This document shows positions 52,500-60,331 of a stretch of DNA of 64,000 nucleotides, one piece after another (the stretch's first letter is position 1; each line of letters starts with the position of its first letter). The notes under the pieces are model-generated. The model did no database searches and was not told the origin of the DNA. It worked only from the letters and a program-made list of their open reading frames with translations. Made by a program: the position numbers and the translations under genes. Location of the stretch: IMG/VR virus record IMGVR_UViG_3300022682_000066, positions 1 through 64,000 of that record; one strand, written 5' to 3'. This DNA is from a virus.

Positions 52500-53621
52500 T
52501 TAGAAGGAGTTATCGTCCATGTCGGCGTCTAGGGCCTCGCTGGGGAAGGCCGGCCCCAAATCTTCATCAGGGTTGTCGTAGGCGGCGGTGTCGGCACTTT
52601 CTTCATCTTCCTTGTGGGGCATCTCGTGGACGTAGACGACTTGATGTATGAACTCACTGGTTTTGAAAATAATGGATCGTTTGCCCAGCATGATGCGGCC
52701 CTTGCTTTGCAACACATCACGAAGTAGGAATGGGTTGATGTAGAAGGAAACGTCCTTCGCACACCTGGCGGGTACTCGTCCGGCGAACCAGCCATCACTT
52801 CCCTCGGAACGGACTTTTGCTTTGTTGTCTGTGATTTTGATTTCAACGTACATTTCTGAGGCATGTTTGTCGTTCAGAAATACGTTGGCCGCTTCGAGGA
52901 TTTCGATCAATTTCTTCGTGAATTGGATGCGGGTGCCCTTCTTTTCTCGTGCCGGGGTTGTGTCGACGTAGGTTTCCTCGAATGTGCGACAGGAGAAGAT
53001 GACCTTGTTCTTGTTTCTGAAGTGCAGCCACCCATCCTGCCGGGCGTAGCTCAGAACATCGTACGCAAGCAGATTCGGGATATGGCGTGCAGGAATGAGG
53101 AAAGGTTTTTTGACTCCGGTTTCCATCGGGAAGGTCGTCAGCCGATAGGAATCCGTTGCTTCGACAAATTCTGGATGGACATGGACGCAGGTAATGAGTG
53201 GTCGCGACATGTCCTTGCTGGCGGTGAGTTGGCAGATGTCCAGTGCGTGAAGAATGGCTGTGTTGAATTTCTTGTACCGAGTAGGCAGCTCAATATCAAG
53301 CGGACGCTCGGACTTGTAAAGTCGCACCCCAGCCTTGAACCCCTTCCCGGTTACCCGCAGTTCGTTCTTGAGCACCTTGAGTTTGACATCTTTCGAATTG
53401 GTAGACAGTAGCAGGTTATAGAACGGCTTGGCCTCCACAGCGATCCCGTCCAGTGCCTCTGTAAGCTCGTCGGGCAGCGGAGCAGAGACGTAGACTTCGT
53501 CATTGAACGTGATCACGCGGCCTTTGCGGAACAGGAAAGCCGTTGAGAGCTCCACCACTTCTTTGGAAGAGAGCCCCGGCCGTACCGTTGTCAACAGATC
53601 AATCAATGCTTGACGATTCAT
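52500..53621 (-). CDS. Sliding clamp (DnaN-like)
   Basis: 373 residues from the ATG at 53621 (AGGAGGAAG upstream). MNRQALIDLLTTVRPGLSSK, TFNDEVYVSAPLP, ITCVHVHPEFVEATDSYRLT and NPFLLRDVLQSKGRIMLG follow the phage DnaN-like clamp pattern. It carries an extra acidic C-terminal tail (EDEESADTAAYDNPDEDLGP). Placed in the replisome operon with loader and polymerase. Confidence 0.8.
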   Translation of the reverse strand: MNRQALIDLLTTVRPGLSSKEVVELSTAFLFRKGRVITFNDEVYVSAPLPDELTEALDGIAVEAKPFYNLLLSTNSKDVKLKVLKNELRVTGKGFKAGVRLYKSERPLDIELPTRYKKFNTAILHALDICQLTASKDMSRPLITCVHVHPEFVEATDSYRLTTFPMETGVKKPFLIPARHIPNLLAYDVLSYARQDGWLHFRNKNKVIFSCRTFEETYVDTTPAREKKGTRIQFTKKLIEILEAANVFLNDKHASEMYVEIKITDNKAKVRSEGSDGWFAGRVPARCAKDVSFYINPFLLRDVLQSKGRIMLGKRSIIFKTSEFIHQVVYVHEMPHKEDEESADTAAYDNPDEDLGPAFPSEALDADMDDNSF

Positions 53622-53803
53622 TTCTTCCTCCTTGCACACCGCCGGGGGCGGGTCGTTTTCTTCATATTGTCGATCCTCCGCTTCGTACAGGAGGTGTAGA
53701 AGTAAGAGAGCAGCACACCGCCGCACTCATGGTATTCCCCAAGCAGTTCTTTAGTGAGTAGATCCTCGGCATAGCAGCCATTACCGGCCAAGTAAACGAT
53801 CAT
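53618..53803 (-). CDS. Small protein coupled to the DpdA-like gene
   Basis: 61 residues, start inside the DpdA-like gene end (23-base overlap) and stop overlapping the clamp start. MIVYLAGNGCYAEDLLTKEL with GGVLLSYFY looks like a Rossmann-type beginning, then ends in a basic tail (KKTTRPRRCARRKK). It may be the N-terminal remnant of a larger protein. Family not recognised. Confidence 0.5.
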   Translation of the reverse strand: MIVYLAGNGCYAEDLLTKELLGEYHECGGVLLSYFYTSCTKRRIDNMKKTTRPRRCARRKK

Positions 53804-54668
53804 CGAATAGCCCCTTTCGTATATGTTTTTTGAATGCCCATGGCCATTTTGGGAGGCTCTTTGCTAATCGCAGAAAGTACATGGCGTTCACGCGCAGGCG
53901 TTCTTTGGAATCGGTCTCGACCCCTTTGAGGGTAGACCCGCAACTCTCGATAAACGCCTCGACGTGGTCCTTGAAGCGCGGAGAAAGCACATCAAGTCCG
54001 TACGGGGGTACAGCCCGCTTGGACGACTTTTCCGACACGAAAATCAGGACGTAGTCCATGAAATCGAGTTTGCCTTTCTTGATTGTAGGAACCAGTACCT
54101 TACCGTAGATGCCGTGCTTGAGCCACGTTGTGCTGTCTACCGAATACCAGGGGTACCGCGCCATCAACTGCGGACTCGTTACAGCAAGGCCGTGAACTTT
54201 GCAGCGGGGCAATCCAGCATCGTCAGTCAGGTACAAAGACCAGAGCCGGTCGAGAATCGGAAGCGTTACCGAAACCGGGTTGGGAGTGATGCCGCCCAGC
54301 GCAATGTAATCATGTCCTTCGTCGATATACTTTTGAAGCCACTTGAGAGGCGTCCCCAAGTGAAAGATTGGGATGGCAGGTACACCACGGGCTTTTGCTT
54401 GCTTCATATTCTCGTAAGTGAGTGGTGCGTTGTTAATGATGTCGAAACAGGCACAAGCAGTGATATACCTTTCCTTTTTGAGGTACTTAAGATATTCGTC
54501 GTGATAGGTTTCGACTTCTTCTTGCTCAACCCATTCAAAGGAGTCTCGGTGCCGGTCTCCAAAACGGGAACCCATAGACTCGCTAGTCGGGTTGCTTTTG
54601 GTGAGTTTATTGTAGAATGTCGGAGCGCCACTGTCGACGAAGACGTTGAATTTCCTAGATACGGCCAT
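53781..54668 (-). CDS. dpdA: DpdA-like DNA transglycosylase (TGT family)
   Basis: 295 residues. FNVFVDSGAPTFYNKL, ACACFDIINNAPLTYENMKQ, PAIPIFHLGTPLKWLQKYI, YIALGGITPNP and WYSVDSTTWL are the blocks of phage DpdA/TGT-like proteins, with D12 placed as a TGT catalytic Asp. Family knowledge: these replace guanine in DNA by a 7-deazaguanine base. The gene start overlaps the glycosyltransferase stop by 14 bases. The base made here is not known from sequence. Confidence 0.82.
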   Translation of the reverse strand: MAVSRKFNVFVDSGAPTFYNKLTKSNPTSESMGSRFGDRHRDSFEWVEQEEVETYHDEYLKYLKKERYITACACFDIINNAPLTYENMKQAKARGVPAIPIFHLGTPLKWLQKYIDEGHDYIALGGITPNPVSVTLPILDRLWSLYLTDDAGLPRCKVHGLAVTSPQLMARYPWYSVDSTTWLKHGIYGKVLVPTIKKGKLDFMDYVLIFVSEKSSKRAVPPYGLDVLSPRFKDHVEAFIESCGSTLKGVETDSKERLRVNAMYFLRLAKSLPKWPWAFKKHIRKGLFDDRLLGR

Positions 54669-55689
54669 CGGGATAGATCTCCTTGAGCATATTCGGTATC
54701 GCTTGCTCGCCGGCTTTTTTCAGTTTATCCATCCCGTGCATGAGAAAGCGTTGGTATCGATGGTTGTCCGTTTCGTAAGCTGTTACAATTCGGAGGATCT
54801 TCTTCTTTAATTCAGTGAGTGTGTCGTATCGCATATCTGATGGATACATTTCCGGGTAAGACAGTCGATTCGGGACGAGCGGGATGCAACCGGAGAACCA
54901 GGCTTCTTGCATTGCGATTCCCCAGGTTTCTTGGACAGCACAAGAGACCGCGATAGCCGCCGTCCCCAGAAGAGCGTAGTATTGGCCCTTTGTCAGGCAC
55001 ACATTCTTGGTGTAGACCCAGCGCCATTGTTTTGGTAGTTGTGGTCGGAGGGACTGCATCACCGTTTCAAATACGGTAGGTTGTTTTTCTTCATCCAGCC
55101 GGTGAGGGAACACAATTACCGGTTCTCTCTGAAGGTGGGATTGGCTTTCGAGATTATCGGTATACAGCGGGAATCCGGTCACATGAGTATTTCTGCAGTA
55201 GCGTCTTCGTGTCAGAAGGGATTGATGGAACTTGGTTGCAAGAAAAATACCGTCGACTTCGTTGAACCAAGAAAGTTCACTGTTGAGTGCCCAGCGTTCC
55301 ATCCCCTGCTTCGTGAGAAAATCGTGAGGATCGTAGGTACCGGCATGAAGGCAACCGTAGATCCGGAGATCCATGTTGAGCCCGTCTCGTATGTAGAACA
55401 GCATTTCGAGTCCTGGAAACCATAAATCGTGGAAAAGCAGTACGTCCTTGTTCTTGATACGCCCGTCATGAATCATCTGACAGATTTTCCGAAGCTGGGA
55501 GGCTTTGTAGGCGTTCGTCCCTACTACATCAAGAAATGCTCCGTGTTCGATTGTATCCCCGAGAGGCTCTCCTTCAATGAATTCGAAAGGAATTGGACGA
55601 TTCGAAAGTTCCTTTTGAAACCAGGAAGCCCATTGTGCGGAGTAGCGTTCTTCGAGAGGTTCGATCGGAACCACGAATAGTTTACTCAT
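54655..55689 (-). CDS. Glycosyltransferase in the DNA-modification operon
   Basis: 344 residues. GT-B/GT4 pattern: LLFHDLWFPGLEMLFYIRDG, IYGCLHAGTYDPHDF, VIVFPHRLDEEKQPTVFETV, then SCAVQETWGIAMQEAWFSG followed by CIPLVPNRLSYPEMYP, the donor site region. Start and stop overlap the radical SAM and DpdA-like genes, so all three are translationally coupled. That coupling suggests it acts on the modified DNA base, as T4 glucosyltransferases do on hydroxymethylcytosine; this is inference. Confidence 0.78.
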   Translation of the reverse strand: MSKLFVVPIEPLEERYSAQWASWFQKELSNRPIPFEFIEGEPLGDTIEHGAFLDVVGTNAYKASQLRKICQMIHDGRIKNKDVLLFHDLWFPGLEMLFYIRDGLNMDLRIYGCLHAGTYDPHDFLTKQGMERWALNSELSWFNEVDGIFLATKFHQSLLTRRRYCRNTHVTGFPLYTDNLESQSHLQREPVIVFPHRLDEEKQPTVFETVMQSLRPQLPKQWRWVYTKNVCLTKGQYYALLGTAAIAVSCAVQETWGIAMQEAWFSGCIPLVPNRLSYPEMYPSDMRYDTLTELKKKILRIVTAYETDNHRYQRFLMHGMDKLKKAGEQAIPNMLKEIYPDGRI

Positions 55690-57004
55690 TGCCGACCTCC
55701 TCGATCAACCCAAGTCGTGCTTGGATTGCGATTGATACTGCGGCATCTCCAGGACGATTTGATTCAAACACCACCTGCGACACTCGGACTGGGCGGGTGA
55801 TCTCGAGTTGCGGGACCTTGTAAAGGTTGTGATAGTAGTTAGCTGCGTGCTTGGAAATAGGCACAGAGCCTATTGATGGGCTGGTTTCTTGGATAGTGCA
55901 GTCGAGGAAGCTGTTCGGGAGATACGACGGTACGAGCCGCAGTGGACGGCTGGTGAGGAAAACGCCTTCTTTCTTCAATGCTTCGTAATCGGCTGTGCCA
56001 TGGTACGGTTGAAAAAATTGCCCGAGTCCTCCCCAAGTCCCGTTGGTACGGATGCGACCATACAGCTCGTAGGGATCAAAGCCGTATTGCATGAGGAAGT
56101 CCCCGGTGGTTTTGATTGTGTTGATCGTCTCACCGGGGAAGAATGTCATCGTCAGCCAAAAGATATCGACTGGGGATTCGTCAGCCAATTGATGGTACTT
56201 TTCGATGTGGGGCTTCCCCATACTGGCACCGAGATCCTCGTCCGCTGTTTCAAGGCCTACTTCGATCAGCCGTACGGTTTTGGAGAGGGTGTCCCCTCCG
56301 TATGTGTGAAGGTATGAGAGGACTTTACTGACGCTGCCCAATGTGATGAAATTGAATTGGACATTGTACCTCTCGAGGAGCATTGCAGCATATTCGAGAA
56401 TGGCATGTGCTTTACTCGGTGAGAAGAAGAAATCTTCGTCGGTGAAATGGATATTGTAAACACCGGTCAGGGCACATTGCTTCAAGACGTCGTCGATCAC
56501 TTCAAGATCGAGTTCGATTCGTCTGCGATTGGTGTTGACCGTTGTGGGACAGAACGCACAACCGCGGGGACAGCCGTAGGAGGTGAATAACGGGTATACC
56601 TGCCCTTCGTATTTTTTGAGGTGCATGTCGCAATCGCTCAAGAGCAGATATTTGAAAGATTGGTAATGGCGTGGGTAGGTTCGCATCCCCAGCAGGATGT
56701 CTTCGTCAGGTACGATATATTTGTTGAACCCGCATTCATCGATCAGCGGGTAATATCCAAAGAAGTAGACTTCCTTATTCGGCAGGAATTTTTCCAGGAT
56801 GCGGCACATCTCGATCTGTGGGTAGGACCACAGCGCCACGTAAACCGGCTCCGTGTCCTCTACCGAGTCGAGTTGATCTAGTGTGAAGTTCTCGAAGAAA
56901 TGGCTGAGTTCGCCGTTTTCCGTTGCAGCCCCCGCAAACAGATAGGGAAGGTAACAAAAGCTGCCTCTATTAAATTCTGGGCTGGTGGGATCGATGATAA
57001 TCAT
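55682..57004 (-). CDS. Radical SAM enzyme of the DNA-modification operon
   Basis: 440 residues. FTSYGCPRGCAFCPTTVN holds C145-x3-C149-x2-C152, the iron-sulfur site, and VYNIHFTDEDFFFSPS and RLIEVGLETADEDLG fit the SAM-binding barrel. The N-terminal 130 residues resemble the B12-binding-like fold of class B enzymes (VALWSYPQIEMCRILEKF), without an obvious DxHxxG motif. Not QueE, which is separate. It may modify the deazaguanine side chain; the reaction is unknown. Confidence 0.8.
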   Translation of the reverse strand: MIIIDPTSPEFNRGSFCYLPYLFAGAATENGELSHFFENFTLDQLDSVEDTEPVYVALWSYPQIEMCRILEKFLPNKEVYFFGYYPLIDECGFNKYIVPDEDILLGMRTYPRHYQSFKYLLLSDCDMHLKKYEGQVYPLFTSYGCPRGCAFCPTTVNTNRRRIELDLEVIDDVLKQCALTGVYNIHFTDEDFFFSPSKAHAILEYAAMLLERYNVQFNFITLGSVSKVLSYLHTYGGDTLSKTVRLIEVGLETADEDLGASMGKPHIEKYHQLADESPVDIFWLTMTFFPGETINTIKTTGDFLMQYGFDPYELYGRIRTNGTWGGLGQFFQPYHGTADYEALKKEGVFLTSRPLRLVPSYLPNSFLDCTIQETSPSIGSVPISKHAANYYHNLYKVPQLEITRPVRVSQVVFESNRPGDAAVSIAIQARLGLIEEVGNE

Positions 57005-57291
57005 TGTTTGAGAAACCTCCGCTTGGATTGGATTACTTCAACAATTTTTCGATGATCCACTCGTTCTGCTCCGGCTTGAAAGGCTCGGAAGATGAAGGAG
57101 TCCATGACGTTGAAGTGCTCTTTCGCTTCACCCTTGTATTGCAGCTGGTTTTTTCGAAGCCCTATTCGTAATCCAAAACGGCGCAGTTCTCTCGTGCCGG
57201 CTTTGCCGTGCTTATCAGAAATCATGTGGGCCGTGTGGCGTACTCGTTTCCCGACCAGATATGCAGTCGTCGGGCTGATGAGGACACTCAT
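57001..57291 (-). CDS. DUF4031 protein
   Basis: 96 residues from the ATG at 57291. HTAHMISDKHGKAGTRELRRFG, LRIGLRKNQLQYKGEAKEHF and AFQAGAERVDHRK match DUF4031 (HMxAD...ELxxFAxxIGL...HFD...A...GA). Family function unknown. Start overlaps the T-fold gene stop, stop overlaps the radical SAM start (ATGA). Confidence 0.7.
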   Translation of the reverse strand: MSVLISPTTAYLVGKRVRHTAHMISDKHGKAGTRELRRFGLRIGLRKNQLQYKGEAKEHFNVMDSFIFRAFQAGAERVDHRKIVEVIQSKRRFLKQ

Positions 57292-57617
57292 CGCCAAACC
57301 TCGGCGCCGTTCTCGTTGTCTTCGGATACTGAAACCATGTCGATTTCGGGGAAAATGTCAAGCAGTTGGCGCCCGAGCATTTCGCAGGAGGTCTTTCCGA
57401 GGAAGCGTTCGGCGTATTCGCGCTGGATGTGCCTCTCGACTTTGTTTTTGAGTGAAATGAACTCGATATCGCGATTATCGTGATCAACGAATGCCCAAAT
57501 CTTCACATGGAAGACGTGCCGGTGTGGGTTTCGAAGAAATATGACTTCTTGCGGGGCTTCGGGCCAGTGATGGGTTGCTGCGAATTGCAGCGTAGCCCAT
57601 ACGAGATAACGTGCCAT
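57288..57617 (-). CDS. T-fold (QueD/PTPS-like) paralogue
   Basis: 109 residues. H16/H17 in FAATHHWPEAP and H32, H34 in NPHRHVFHVKIW are placed like the three zinc histidines of QueD/PTPS, and SCEMLGRQLLD with VSVSEDNENGAEV fit the substrate-binding end (PTxEN, Et). The catalytic Cys of QueD is missing. A second, true QueD lies at 59951-60331, so this copy probably has a changed reaction or binding role in the pathway. Confidence 0.65.
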   Translation of the reverse strand: MARYLVWATLQFAATHHWPEAPQEVIFLRNPHRHVFHVKIWAFVDHDNRDIEFISLKNKVERHIQREYAERFLGKTSCEMLGRQLLDIFPEIDMVSVSEDNENGAEVWR

Positions 57618-57621
57618 GATA

Positions 57622-58173
57622 TTACCTCAAAAGAGTGGTCATGAGTTCAGCACGAGCGGCTTGATCGGTCAAGAAAACACCCTTGAGGCTTTGGTACCCC
57701 ATGATGCTGTGCTGTTTTTGGACACCACGGCAAGCCATACAGAGGTGTTTGGCTTCGAGGATACATGCGGCACCTTTGGGGCGTAAATGTTCCATCAATG
57801 CCTCTGTAACCTGCTCGGCAATGCGCTCTTGTATTTGCAGGCGGCGGGCGTAGATATCGAGGATACGTGCGAGCTTGGAGACGCCGATCACCCGTTTGTG
57901 AGGGATGTAGGCAATTGAGGCCTGTCCGGTGAAGGGGAGCATGTGATGCTCACACATAGAGTAGAACTCGATATTCTTGAGATATACGAGTCCGGTGGCT
58001 TCCTTGCACTCAAAGGTTTTCAGTATTTTTGAAGGGCACTGTCGGTACCCTGCGTAAAGTTCGCCCCAGCTTCTGCGAACACGAGTTGGCGTTTCGATGA
58101 GGCCTTCCCGAGTAGGGTCTTCGCCGATTCGAAGGAGCATGGTACGAATGATTTCTTCTGATCTGATTGGCAT
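57622..58173 (-). CDS. folE: GTP cyclohydrolase I
   Basis: 183 residues. FYSMCEHHMLPFTGQASIAY (C74, H76, H77), RLQIQERIAEQVTEAL and HLCMACRGVQKQHS (C145) give the three zinc ligands with the family spacing. It converts GTP to dihydroneopterin triphosphate, the first step to 7-deazaguanines (and folate). With QueD and QueE this gives CDG. Confidence 0.93.
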   Translation of the reverse strand: MPIRSEEIIRTMLLRIGEDPTREGLIETPTRVRRSWGELYAGYRQCPSKILKTFECKEATGLVYLKNIEFYSMCEHHMLPFTGQASIAYIPHKRVIGVSKLARILDIYARRLQIQERIAEQVTEALMEHLRPKGAACILEAKHLCMACRGVQKQHSIMGYQSLKGVFLTDQAARAELMTTLLR

Positions 58174-58202
58174 GACAAAGGCCCCTTTGTGAAAGTAAAA
58201 CA

Positions 58203-58229
58203 GGGGAGGGGATGAAAGGTCCCCTCCCC
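58203..58229 (-). terminator. Terminator between the acidic protein and folE
   Basis: 10-bp stem GGGGAGGGGA (58203-58212) with TCCCCTCCCC (58220-58229), followed on the minus strand by TGTTTTAC. On the plus strand it is followed by GTTTTCG, so it is weakly bidirectional. Confidence 0.72.
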
Positions 58230-58250
58230 GTTTTCGTTCTGCGATTGCTG

Positions 58251-59123
58251 TTAGGTGTTGGCCTTCTTGCCCAGGTTGTAGTAGATGGTGGCGCGCTTCT
58301 TCATGTAGGCTTCGTCTTCGACCCCGCGCTCCTTGTAGAGCTTGATGAAGTGGGCGATGACCTGCTTCTTGGATTTGCCGTCCTTGACCATCTTGACGGC
58401 CATCTGCTCGAAGGATTCGCCCTTCTTGCCCCCGCCCCGGGCGGACTTGCCGGTACGCTTGGTGCCGGTGCTTTTCTTGACCTCGGGCTTGCCGACGATC
58501 TTCTGCATCTTGGCCTTGAGGTCCTTGGTGCCCTGCAGGCCCTTGAACTTGCTCAGGCCCTTGCGGAGACCCTTGAACTCGTCGTAGTCCTCGACGATAG
58601 CCTTGAGGTCGTCCAGCTTGCGGGTCGAGGCCACGTAGGCGGACAGATCGAGGTCGTCGTCCTCGTCGTCATCGTCGCCGCCGGCGCCGTCGTCGTCTTC
58701 GTCCTCGTCGGCGGCTTCGTCGTCGTCGGCGTCTTCGTCGTCTTCGTCGTCTTCGTCGTCCTCCTCGTCGTCGTCTTCGTCGTCGGCGTCTTCGTCGTCC
58801 TCGTCGTCGGGAGCCTCGGGCGCCTCGTCGTCGGGATCGTCGTCGCCGTCAGCTTCCGCCAGGTTGGCTTCGGGGTCGCAGCCCAGGGCGAGCAGCGTGG
58901 CCCAGGCTTCTTCGGAAAGGGCTTCCTCGTCGCTCGGGACGATCGCATGGAAGACTTCCTTGATTCCCTTGGCCAGTGTCTTGCTCTTGAGGTTCAGAGG
59001 GGGCTCGATGTCGATGATCTCGTTGAGCTCCTTGCCGAGTGCGACCAACTCCTTGAGGGTGGGCTTCTTCGAACCGGAGCTCTTTTTCGGAGCCGCTTTC
59101 TTGGTCTGGGTCTTCTTCGCCAT
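58251..59123 (-). CDS. Protein with Lys-rich ends and a central poly-Asp/Glu tract
   Basis: 290 residues. Lys/Ala-rich N-terminus (KKTQTKKAAPKKSSGSKK), a helical part (30-85), an acidic run of about 80 residues (90-165), a helical part (YVASTRKLDDLKAIVEDYDE), a Lys/Gly block, and a small C-terminal domain (FEQMAVKMVKDGKSKKQVIAHF). GC-rich, with its own promoter and terminator, so probably strongly expressed. It could be a DNA-compacting, histone-mimic or DNA-mimic protein; not recognised. Confidence 0.62.
   Translation of the reverse strand: MAKKTQTKKAAPKKSSGSKKPTLKELVALGKELNEIIDIEPPLNLKSKTLAKGIKEVFHAIVPSDEEALSEEAWATLLALGCDPEANLAEADGDDDPDDEAPEAPDDEDDEDADDEDDDEEDDEDDEDDEDADDDEAADEDEDDDGAGGDDDDEDDDLDLSAYVASTRKLDDLKAIVEDYDEFKGLRKGLSKFKGLQGTKDLKAKMQKIVGKPEVKKSTGTKRTGKSARGGGKKGESFEQMAVKMVKDGKSKKQVIAHFIKLYKERGVEDEAYMKKRATIYYNLGKKANT
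58640..58870 (-). repeat. GAC/GAG codon repeat (acidic tract)
   Basis: Triplet-type repeat encoding poly-Asp/Glu, the same kind as in the SSB gene at 47080-47330. The two tracts could recombine with each other. Confidence 0.85.
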
Positions 59124-59181
59124 TGCCGTTCTCCTTGTTTTTTGGGCATTTGCCCTCGTTAAAAGAATCTACTCGTGTATC

Positions 59182-59209
59182 ATTATACGAGCAAAGGTCC
59201 CTTTTTCTT
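59182..59209 (-). promoter_or_regulatory. Phage promoter, AAGAAA/TATAAT type
   Basis: AAGAAA (59209-59204), 16-bp spacer ending CG, TATAAT (59187-59182). Reads into the acidic protein gene with a leader of about 50 bases. Confidence 0.68.
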
Positions 59210-59218
59210 TTTAATTAT

Positions 59219-59947
59219 TCACGCCACCCCGAGGATTTTGTGAATTTGCACATTGAGCACAAGATTGAGCCCTTCCAGTTCCTCCCACTGCCGAAGCAAA
59301 GTCTGAGGGATATACCCTGTTTTGATTGCTTCCGTTTGACTGATTGCCCACCCGCAGCGAACTGAGTCGAAGGGGTACCGTTCCCGCATATCACTTATGA
59401 ACTTCAGGGCGTGAAGGACATCGCTGTATTCGTGACACACCAACTTGACCCAGGAACCCAGGGGCAGATCAGGAAGAATGCGACCTACGAGTGACTCGTT
59501 AGTCGAGCCGGGAAGGCCTTCGCCGCTTCCCGGTAATTTGTGATCTACAACCCAGGTCACTTTGCTCCCGATACCCCATTTGCCGTGTGGAGGCTCAACG
59601 GTACCGTTGGTTTCGATAATCACAGGACGATGCTGTTTGTCGGAAAGGTGAAAAACCACATCCCGCAATTCGTCCCAATTTTGCAGCAACGGTTCACCAC
59701 CAGTGATGAGAATTGGTGTAGGATGCGCGAGCGGAAACGGTGCTGGGACTGATAATGCCGCTACTCGCTCGAGTATTTCGGCCACACCCATTTCCTTCCC
59801 CTGGTGGTTTCCAAGAGCCTCAATAGCGTCACAATAGTGACATCGCAGGTTGCACCCTTGGAAGCGGATGATGATGATTGGTTCGCCTTGCAGCACACCG
59901 CCGCCGACTTCTCCGCTGAAACTTCTGGAGATGTTATGAACCCGCAT
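59219..59947 (-). CDS. queE: 7-carboxy-7-deazaguanine synthase
   Basis: 242 residues. Radical SAM site RFQGCNLRCHYCDA (C32, C36, C39), LITGGEPLLQ and PVIIETNGTVEPP match QueE. It forms 7-carboxy-7-deazaguanine (CDG) from 6-carboxytetrahydropterin. Three bases separate it from queD, upstream in the same operon. Confidence 0.92.
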   Translation of the reverse strand: MRVHNISRSFSGEVGGGVLQGEPIIIIRFQGCNLRCHYCDAIEALGNHQGKEMGVAEILERVAALSVPAPFPLAHPTPILITGGEPLLQNWDELRDVVFHLSDKQHRPVIIETNGTVEPPHGKWGIGSKVTWVVDHKLPGSGEGLPGSTNESLVGRILPDLPLGSWVKLVCHEYSDVLHALKFISDMRERYPFDSVRCGWAISQTEAIKTGYIPQTLLRQWEELEGLNLVLNVQIHKILGVA

Positions 59948-59950
59948 AAA

Positions 59951-60331
59951 TTACCCCCGTTTGTACTCGACCCAGGAGGTCGGGGTTTCGGTGATGCGGA
60001 TGCGGACCACCGCGTTGTGTAGCCGCTCGTCCAACGTGTTGTGCATCCAGCGGACGAGATTTTCGCAGGTAGGCGGTTGAAATTGGTCCGGGAGGATGTC
60101 GTTGAGATGCTGGTGATCAATAAGCTCAACGACTTCATTCACCACGGCTTTTATTTCCGAGAAATCCATGATCATTCCCGGGTAACATTGGTGAATTTTG
60201 TCCTTGGACACGGGATGTTCGACTTCAACTTCCATTCGGGCGTTGTGCCCGTGCAGGCGACGGCACTTGCCTTTGTAGTCGGGCAAAGAGTGCGAGTAAC
60301 AGAAATCGAAAACCTTGGTTGCAGTGAGCAT
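59951..60331 (-). CDS. queD: 6-carboxy-tetrahydropterin synthase
   Basis: 126 residues. FDFCYSHSLPDYKGKCRRLH then GHNARMEVEV has H14, C23, H28 and H30, the zinc and catalytic residues; MIMDFSEIKAVVNEVVELID then HQHLND and PPTCENLVRWM with RIRITETPTSWVEY complete the T-fold. Starts directly behind the promoter at 60349-60376 with AGGAGG. Confidence 0.93.
   Translation of the reverse strand: MLTATKVFDFCYSHSLPDYKGKCRRLHGHNARMEVEVEHPVSKDKIHQCYPGMIMDFSEIKAVVNEVVELIDHQHLNDILPDQFQPPTCENLVRWMHNTLDERLHNAVVRIRITETPTSWVEYKRG

Follow-up and report, generated by a model that had tools for sequence, protein, structure and literature searches.

A phage gene cassette that may place a glycosylated, radically edited 7-deazaguanine in DNA

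Gene content and layout of the cassette

IMG/VR record IMGVR_UViG_3300022682_000066 derives from an uncultured tailed phage and carries genes for a tape measure protein and for a capsid protein of the Linocin/HK97 type. We analyzed 64,000 of its 64,815 bases, referred to here as the window. On the minus strand, immediately before the sliding clamp gene, lies a cassette that harbors genes for FolE, QueD, QueE and a DpdA-type DNA guanine transglycosylase, together with genes for a T-fold protein, a glycosyltransferase and a radical S-adenosylmethionine (SAM) enzyme (Table 1). We propose that the product of this cassette is a 7-deazaguanine in the phage DNA that has been glycosylated and whose sugar has been edited by radical chemistry, a reading to which we assign a probability of about 0.55. 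The genes are located where a preliminary description of the sequence had placed them, all on the minus strand.

The start/stop overlaps that this description had reported from folE to the clamp are also present. The gap between folE and the T-fold gene is 4 nucleotides (nt), and the successive junctions from T-fold/DUF4031 through DpdA/small open reading frame (ORF) overlap by 10, 4, 8, 14 and 23 nt. The order FolE, T-fold protein, radical SAM enzyme, glycosyltransferase and DpdA is seen again in the first 20 contigs found with the radical SAM enzyme, at 40-50% protein identity (2 of these contigs end before DpdA). Because the same order is retained in relatives at this distance, the gene set is not a product of chance. 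A search of phages at the DNA level gave no match.

Of the features of a dpd system, the window carries FolE, QueD and QueE, together with a DpdA-family DNA guanine transglycosylase. The synthesis of 7-carboxy-7-deazaguanine (CDG) by FolE, QueD and QueE, as proposed in the preliminary description, agrees with the families matched and with the lack of QueC (see below), and the Cys, HGH and DH motifs of QueD are conserved in the alignment. In the lineage of the window, folE and dpdA are separated by the genes for the T-fold protein, the radical SAM enzyme and the glycosyltransferase.

The DUF4031 gene had been counted as a member of the operon. It does belong to the same translation unit, but it is not part of the cassette in relatives; among the loci compared, the protein was detected in the window only, and we rejected it as a conserved member. 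Its presence within the translation unit is therefore peculiar to the window phage among these loci. The 290-amino-acid (aa) ORF at 58251-59123 contains a long Asp/Glu-rich stretch and gave low-complexity matches only. ParB-like genes follow dpdA in several relatives.

Table 1. Cassette genes and adjoining features in the window
Feature	Length (aa)	Positions	Strand	Family match or motif
QueD (6-carboxytetrahydropterin synthase)	126	59951..60331	-	PF01242 4.4e-33; phrog_2389
QueE (CDG synthase, radical SAM)	242	59219..59947	-	phrog_2076 6.2e-25; PF04055
Acidic ORF between queE and folE	290	58251..59123	-	
FolE (GTP cyclohydrolase I)	183	57622..58173	-	PF01227 3.8e-66
T-fold protein (zinc-type, QueD-like)	109	57288..57617	-	phrog_17812 1.5e-18
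DUF4031 protein	98	57001..57297	-	PF13223 2.2e-8; phrog_4887
AprD4-like radical SAM enzyme	440	55682..57004	-	PF04055 8.5e-14; CxxxCxxC at residues 145-152
QTMAN-like GT-B/GT4 glycosyltransferase	344	54655..55689	-	predicted fold and profile comparison; EX7E motif E254/E262
DpdA1-type DNA guanine transglycosylase	295	53781..54668	-	phrog_887 2.6e-36; homology to phage 9g DpdA
Small ORF overlapping DpdA gene and clamp start	61	53618..53803	-	no family match (Pfam, PHROG)
Sliding clamp		begins ~53726	-	

Co-occurrence of the cassette genes across viral contigs

Four families (DpdA, the radical SAM enzyme, the glycosyltransferase and the T-fold protein) were used to scan viral contigs, and every locus was annotated with profiles, which resulted in 123 distinct contigs. 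Several of the scans used cassette members as queries, so that absolute frequencies are biased and the conditional frequencies are the informative ones. Glycosyltransferase loci were considered well covered when at least 4 kb was available on each side of a core gene. The glycosyltransferase is present in all 27 loci with the AprD4-like radical SAM enzyme, and the T-fold protein in all 62 well-covered glycosyltransferase loci. In the opposite direction, 14 of the 76 well-covered T-fold loci are without the glycosyltransferase, and the T-fold protein also occurs alone with FolE/QueE. Cellulophaga phage phiST likewise harbors the T-fold protein and no glycosyltransferase. The genes therefore occur in layers: the CDG genes, then the T-fold protein, then the glycosyltransferase, and then the radical SAM enzyme. 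This nested occurrence suggests an order of biosynthetic steps that it would mirror.

The preliminary description had tied the glycosyltransferase and the extra radical SAM enzyme to the deazaguanine genes. Both are indeed linked to them, but the tightly bound pair consists of the T-fold protein and the glycosyltransferase. The radical SAM enzyme, which had been regarded as part of the set, accompanies the glycosyltransferase without exception where it occurs, but is absent from some relatives or exchanged in others for a radical SAM enzyme with a SPASM domain; it forms a tailoring layer that is absent or replaceable. Independent movement of these genes and dpdA had been named as an observation that would count against the reading, and it was observed in part. 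In jumbo phages, which include Paride and PA5oct, the T-fold/glycosyltransferase pair is indeed found without DpdA1 or the radical SAM enzyme, but always inside a deazaguanine locus. Among cultured phages, ACP17, the PA5oct group, Phosso, BUCT-ZZ01 and X1 harbor the pair in deazaguanine loci with other insertion genes.

One alternative is that the DNA carries a simple deazaguanine, dCDG or 7-deazaguanine, with the glycosyltransferase and radical SAM enzyme as mere neighbors that act, for example, on host surface glycans. Such glycans are a frequent target of phage glycosyltransferases, and the T-fold loci without a glycosyltransferase probably do produce a simple deazaguanine. We nevertheless consider this explanation improbable. 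The linkage of the glycosyltransferase to the T-fold protein holds in 62 of 62 loci even though the sequences are highly divergent and the phages of very different kinds, the enzyme is related to the queuosine-tRNA glycosyltransferase QTMAN (see below), and its gene is translationally coupled to that of DpdA.

A second alternative concerns the stage at which the sugar is added. The substrate of glycosylation could be a free base or nucleotide that is inserted only afterwards, or a small-molecule deazaguanine glycoside could be made instead of modified DNA. The PA5oct-type loci and that of Synechococcus phage BUCT-ZZ01, in which phosphoribosyltransferases are found beside the glycosyltransferase and DpdA1 is absent, suggest such nucleotide routes. 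The cassette of the window is coupled to DpdA, and there is no phosphoribosyltransferase between FolE and the clamp, which makes this route distinctly improbable here.

We also noted a protein family, phrog_10773, beside the T-fold/glycosyltransferase pair in jumbo-type phages (L024, 6700-7971; L027, 6346-7593; L032, 5608-6918). Its function is unknown in PHROG, and it is annotated as queuine tRNA-ribosyltransferase in Xanthomonas phage X1. It may represent the insertion enzyme of the jumbo-type loci.

Relationships of the T-fold protein, glycosyltransferase, DpdA and radical SAM enzymes

Distant relationships link the T-fold protein to QueD (hhalign E 1e-4, 57% probability) and to the solved PTPS-fold protein PH0634 (9e-4). 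Its zinc-type His triad, H16, H32 and H34, is invariant in 18 sequences, whereas the catalytic Cys and the Asp-His pair of QueD, present in the QueD alignment, are missing from the T-fold alignment. QueC is typical of dpd systems and dispensable in dCDG-type members. No QueC (PF06508) was detected in the 64,815-base record, which is possibly incomplete; control genomes were positive. QueC was likewise found in none of the 76 well-covered T-fold loci. It was found in 3 of 43 records (L001, L003 and L086), all three of which are without the T-fold protein. As the T-fold protein and QueC are mutually exclusive, the simplest inference from these sequences is that the T-fold protein takes over from QueC in the processing of CDG. 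A CDG decarboxylase, DpdL, was reportedly proposed by Cui et al. in 2023 and is a possible counterpart of the T-fold protein. The T-fold family (phrog_17812) is very common, being present in at least 585 viral contigs, many of which are large phages with the glycosyltransferase and without DpdA1.

The predicted structure of the glycosyltransferase (predicted local distance difference test [pLDDT] score, 89) shows the complete GT-B fold, of GT4 type, with BshA as a match (Z score, 25.9 over 307 aa). The EX7E motif is invariant among relatives. The match to PF00534 falls below the Pfam cut-off, and a single-sequence search for a solved homolog found none. Profile comparisons point to a specific relative, QTMAN, which mannosylates queuosine, a 7-deazaguanine, in tRNA (PMC12518689). 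QTMAN (PF12038) is present in 77 of 296 Bacteroidota genomes. In 20 of 20 QTMAN-bearing bacterial genomes the best match of the phage glycosyltransferase profile was QTMAN, with E values down to 5e-14, and the best non-QTMAN glycosyltransferase in those genomes reached 8e-5. Among 100 Bacillota control genomes, only a close Paenibacillus relative of the phage enzyme scored below 1e-3. In the reciprocal search, the QTMAN profile picked the glycosyltransferase ORF alone in the window (1e-10), and hhalign aligned the two over the catalytic half (97.8%, E 1e-12). QTMAN is not among the PDB structure matches of the glycosyltransferase, which is uninformative either way. These comparisons indicate that the catalytic half of the phage enzyme is specifically related to QTMAN. 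The QTMAN_N domain PF12038 gave no match in the enzyme, and the acceptor-side N-terminal half was not alignable; because the link is through the catalytic half only, we designate the protein QTMAN-like rather than QTMAN.

Additional sugar genes accompany the cassette in some relatives: a MobA-like NTP transferase and a second GT-B enzyme (L076), a GT2-type enzyme and further GT-B genes (L081), an epimerase (PA5oct group) and a second glycosyltransferase-like gene (BUCT-ZZ01). AAA_28 kinase-like genes are located between the glycosyltransferase gene and dpdA in some SPASM-type loci (L067, L072, L083 and L085). The glycosyltransferase of phage PhiXhv-15 was rejected as a cassette member, as there are no deazaguanine genes around it. 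Paenibacillus polymyxa ISL-58 harbors a relative with 38% identity on an 805-kb contig (L097, 7998-9017), and no deazaguanine gene was detected within 17 kb around it; this is possibly a new context for the glycosyltransferase family.

The DpdA-like protein had been taken for a DNA-modifying enzyme, which is consistent with its 32% identity to phage 9g DpdA over 211 aa (2e-32). D12, H159 and D178 are invariant among 17 relatives. The profile search against PDB gave only a marginal match, to the DNA-guanine transglycosylase 7ui4 (E 0.47), and the assignment therefore rests on PHROG and phage 9g. The 9g DpdA, with Gat-QueC, inserts deazaguanine into plasmid DNA and does not substitute for Tgt (PMC6884629). 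This bears on the possibility that the product enters tRNA, with the DpdA-like protein as a tRNA transglycosylase and the QTMAN-like enzyme glycosylating the tRNA base, so that host translation is altered. QTMAN itself acts on tRNA, and the PHROG label of phrog_887 reads "queuine tRNA-ribosyltransferase." Considering that the transglycosylase is of the 9g type, and that the genes lie directly before the sliding clamp gene as in 9g, we regard a tRNA product as highly improbable.

As to the radical SAM enzyme, its predicted structure (pLDDT, 89.6) is most similar to AprD4, with a Z score of 22.6 over 358 aa; the next matches scored 18.2, 18.0 and 17.8. AprD4 is also the best PDB match by sequence profile (2.4e-10), and C145, C149 and C152 are invariant among relatives. 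The score against the NCBIfam AprD4 model (NF033070) is 31 bits at a cut-off of 500 bits, and the protein is thus only AprD4-like. A search of 50,697 phage records with the enzyme of the window found no match. AprD4 dehydrates a sugar diol in the pseudodisaccharide paromamine, together with the reductase AprD3 (PMC5461906).

In relatives without the AprD4-like enzyme, a SPASM radical SAM enzyme (PF04055 and PF13186) is present near the same place. Its nearest solved relative is BtrN (8e-18), which oxidizes a cyclitol alcohol (PMC9012708). Among 44 complete loci with the glycosyltransferase, DpdA and the T-fold protein, 20 harbor the AprD4-like enzyme, 13 the SPASM enzyme, 11 neither and none both. 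A radical SAM enzyme as an obligatory member was thus rejected. When the three states were placed on the glycosyltransferase tree, 13 changes were counted (a quick tree with many weak branches), and the two kinds have therefore been exchanged repeatedly. Two unrelated families, whose nearest relatives are carbohydrate or cyclitol carbinol enzymes, alternate beside a glycosyltransferase, and it is mainly this alternation that leads us to favor the sugar as substrate.

An alternative is that the glycosyltransferase modifies the inserted deazaguanine while the radical SAM enzyme targets the base itself or the substituent at C7, for instance by B12-type methylation or by providing an acceptor hydroxyl. 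The fold also resembles the B12 methyltransferases TsrM, CysS and MgmA (Z score, ~18) and MiaB (~16), PhpK is among the weak NCBIfam matches, and an enzyme that makes a hydroxyl would solve the acceptor problem discussed below. On the other hand, AprD4 lies more than 4 Z units above the other structural matches, and the substitute SPASM enzyme is nearest to BtrN, a carbinol dehydrogenase. Moreover, many loci have the glycosyltransferase and no radical SAM enzyme of this sort, whereas the converse was never seen (0 of 27 loci), so that the radical SAM enzyme cannot be needed to create the acceptor. We consider action on the base unlikely.

Proposed pathway and relation to known systems

From the observed genes, their coupling, families, folds and co-occurrence, together with the exclusion of QueC and the alternation of radical SAM enzymes, we predict the chemical steps as follows. 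FolE, QueD and QueE, judging from their families, would convert GTP to CDG. The T-fold protein would process CDG in place of QueC, with decarboxylation or conversion of the carboxylate as candidate reactions. As its homology to the phage 9g enzyme suggests, DpdA would swap guanine in DNA for the processed base. The QTMAN-like glycosyltransferase would then transfer a sugar from a sugar nucleotide to the deazaguanine now present in the DNA, a reaction analogous to that of QTMAN on queuosine in tRNA. Finally, the AprD4-like enzyme may abstract a hydrogen from a carbinol carbon of the sugar, leading to dehydration, oxidation or epimerization. This is the weakest step, and taken by itself, radical editing of the sugar falls somewhat short of an even chance. 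The full sequence of a new 7-deazaguanine made by the T-fold protein, its QTMAN-like glycosylation in DNA and the formation of a deoxy, keto or epimerized sugar by either of two unrelated radical SAM enzymes is more tentative still. The benefit to the phage would likely be escape from restriction and other DNA-sensing defenses.

Several points weigh against the proposed product. If the T-fold protein merely decarboxylates CDG, an O-glycoside would have no hydroxyl on which to form, and the sugar would have to be attached as a C-glycoside or at a different site. The relationship to QTMAN is confined to the C-terminal half of the glycosyltransferase. Pfam and PHROG annotation of the window revealed no NADPH-dependent reductase of the AprD3 type from QueD to the clamp, and complete loci with neither kind of radical SAM enzyme make up 11 of 44. 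In addition, a single locus, L086 (165-5069), harbors FolE, a glycosyltransferase, an AprD4-like radical SAM enzyme, a divergent DpdA, QueC and a phosphoribosyltransferase-like ORF, and no T-fold protein, demonstrating that a glycosyltransferase and a radical SAM enzyme can also sit on the QueC branch.

Our results demonstrate that this extension of the phage deazaguanine pathway is real, that it is conserved and widespread, and that it is new as a combination. Among the open-licence papers searched, none dealt with a glycosylated deazaguanine in DNA or with modified bases in PA5oct. If the proposed pathway is correct, it would unite deazaguanine base replacement and DNA glycosylation, which are known separately, and add radical sugar chemistry on a nucleic acid; the product would be the first glycosylated 7-deazaguanine in DNA, and its formation the first radical remodeling of a DNA-attached sugar. 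A further implication would be that catalytic domains of the QTMAN type specialize in 7-deazaguanine acceptors, in RNA and DNA alike. The analysis provides functional predictions for three unassigned families: the T-fold protein, as a replacement for QueC; the QTMAN-like glycosyltransferase of phages; and the AprD4-like radical SAM enzyme. The cultured jumbo phages with the T-fold/glycosyltransferase pair make the core of the proposal testable.

Of the known systems, the dpd pathway of phages 9g and CAjan (DpdA1, FolE, QueD, QueE and QueC) is shared by the window in FolE, QueD, QueE and the DpdA1-type enzyme, and in both 9g and the window dpdA is located directly before the clamp gene. The window differs in lacking QueC or Gat-QueC and in harboring the T-fold protein, the glycosyltransferase and the radical SAM enzyme. 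QTMAN (GTDC1) shares its catalytic half with the phage enzyme and modifies a 7-deazaguanine nucleoside that is part of a nucleic acid (PMC12518689), whereas the phage enzyme is without a detectable PF12038 and the cassette showed no cyclopentenediol acceptor of the QueA/QueG type. AprD4, a radical SAM 1,2-diol dehydratase of apramycin biosynthesis, is nearest to the enzyme of the window by both structure and sequence. Identity over the alignment is nevertheless 14%, the cassette shows no AprD3 partner, and the function assigned to the phage enzyme is a prediction. The BtrN-like SPASM/twitch enzymes replace the AprD4-like enzyme in relatives and are not present in the window. In T4-type glucosylation of hydroxymethylcytosine, the base, the insertion step and the enzyme families all differ from those considered here. 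What the two would have in common is a base that is made separately and then receives a sugar, and some relatives of the window resemble the T4 type further in their extra glycosyltransferases.

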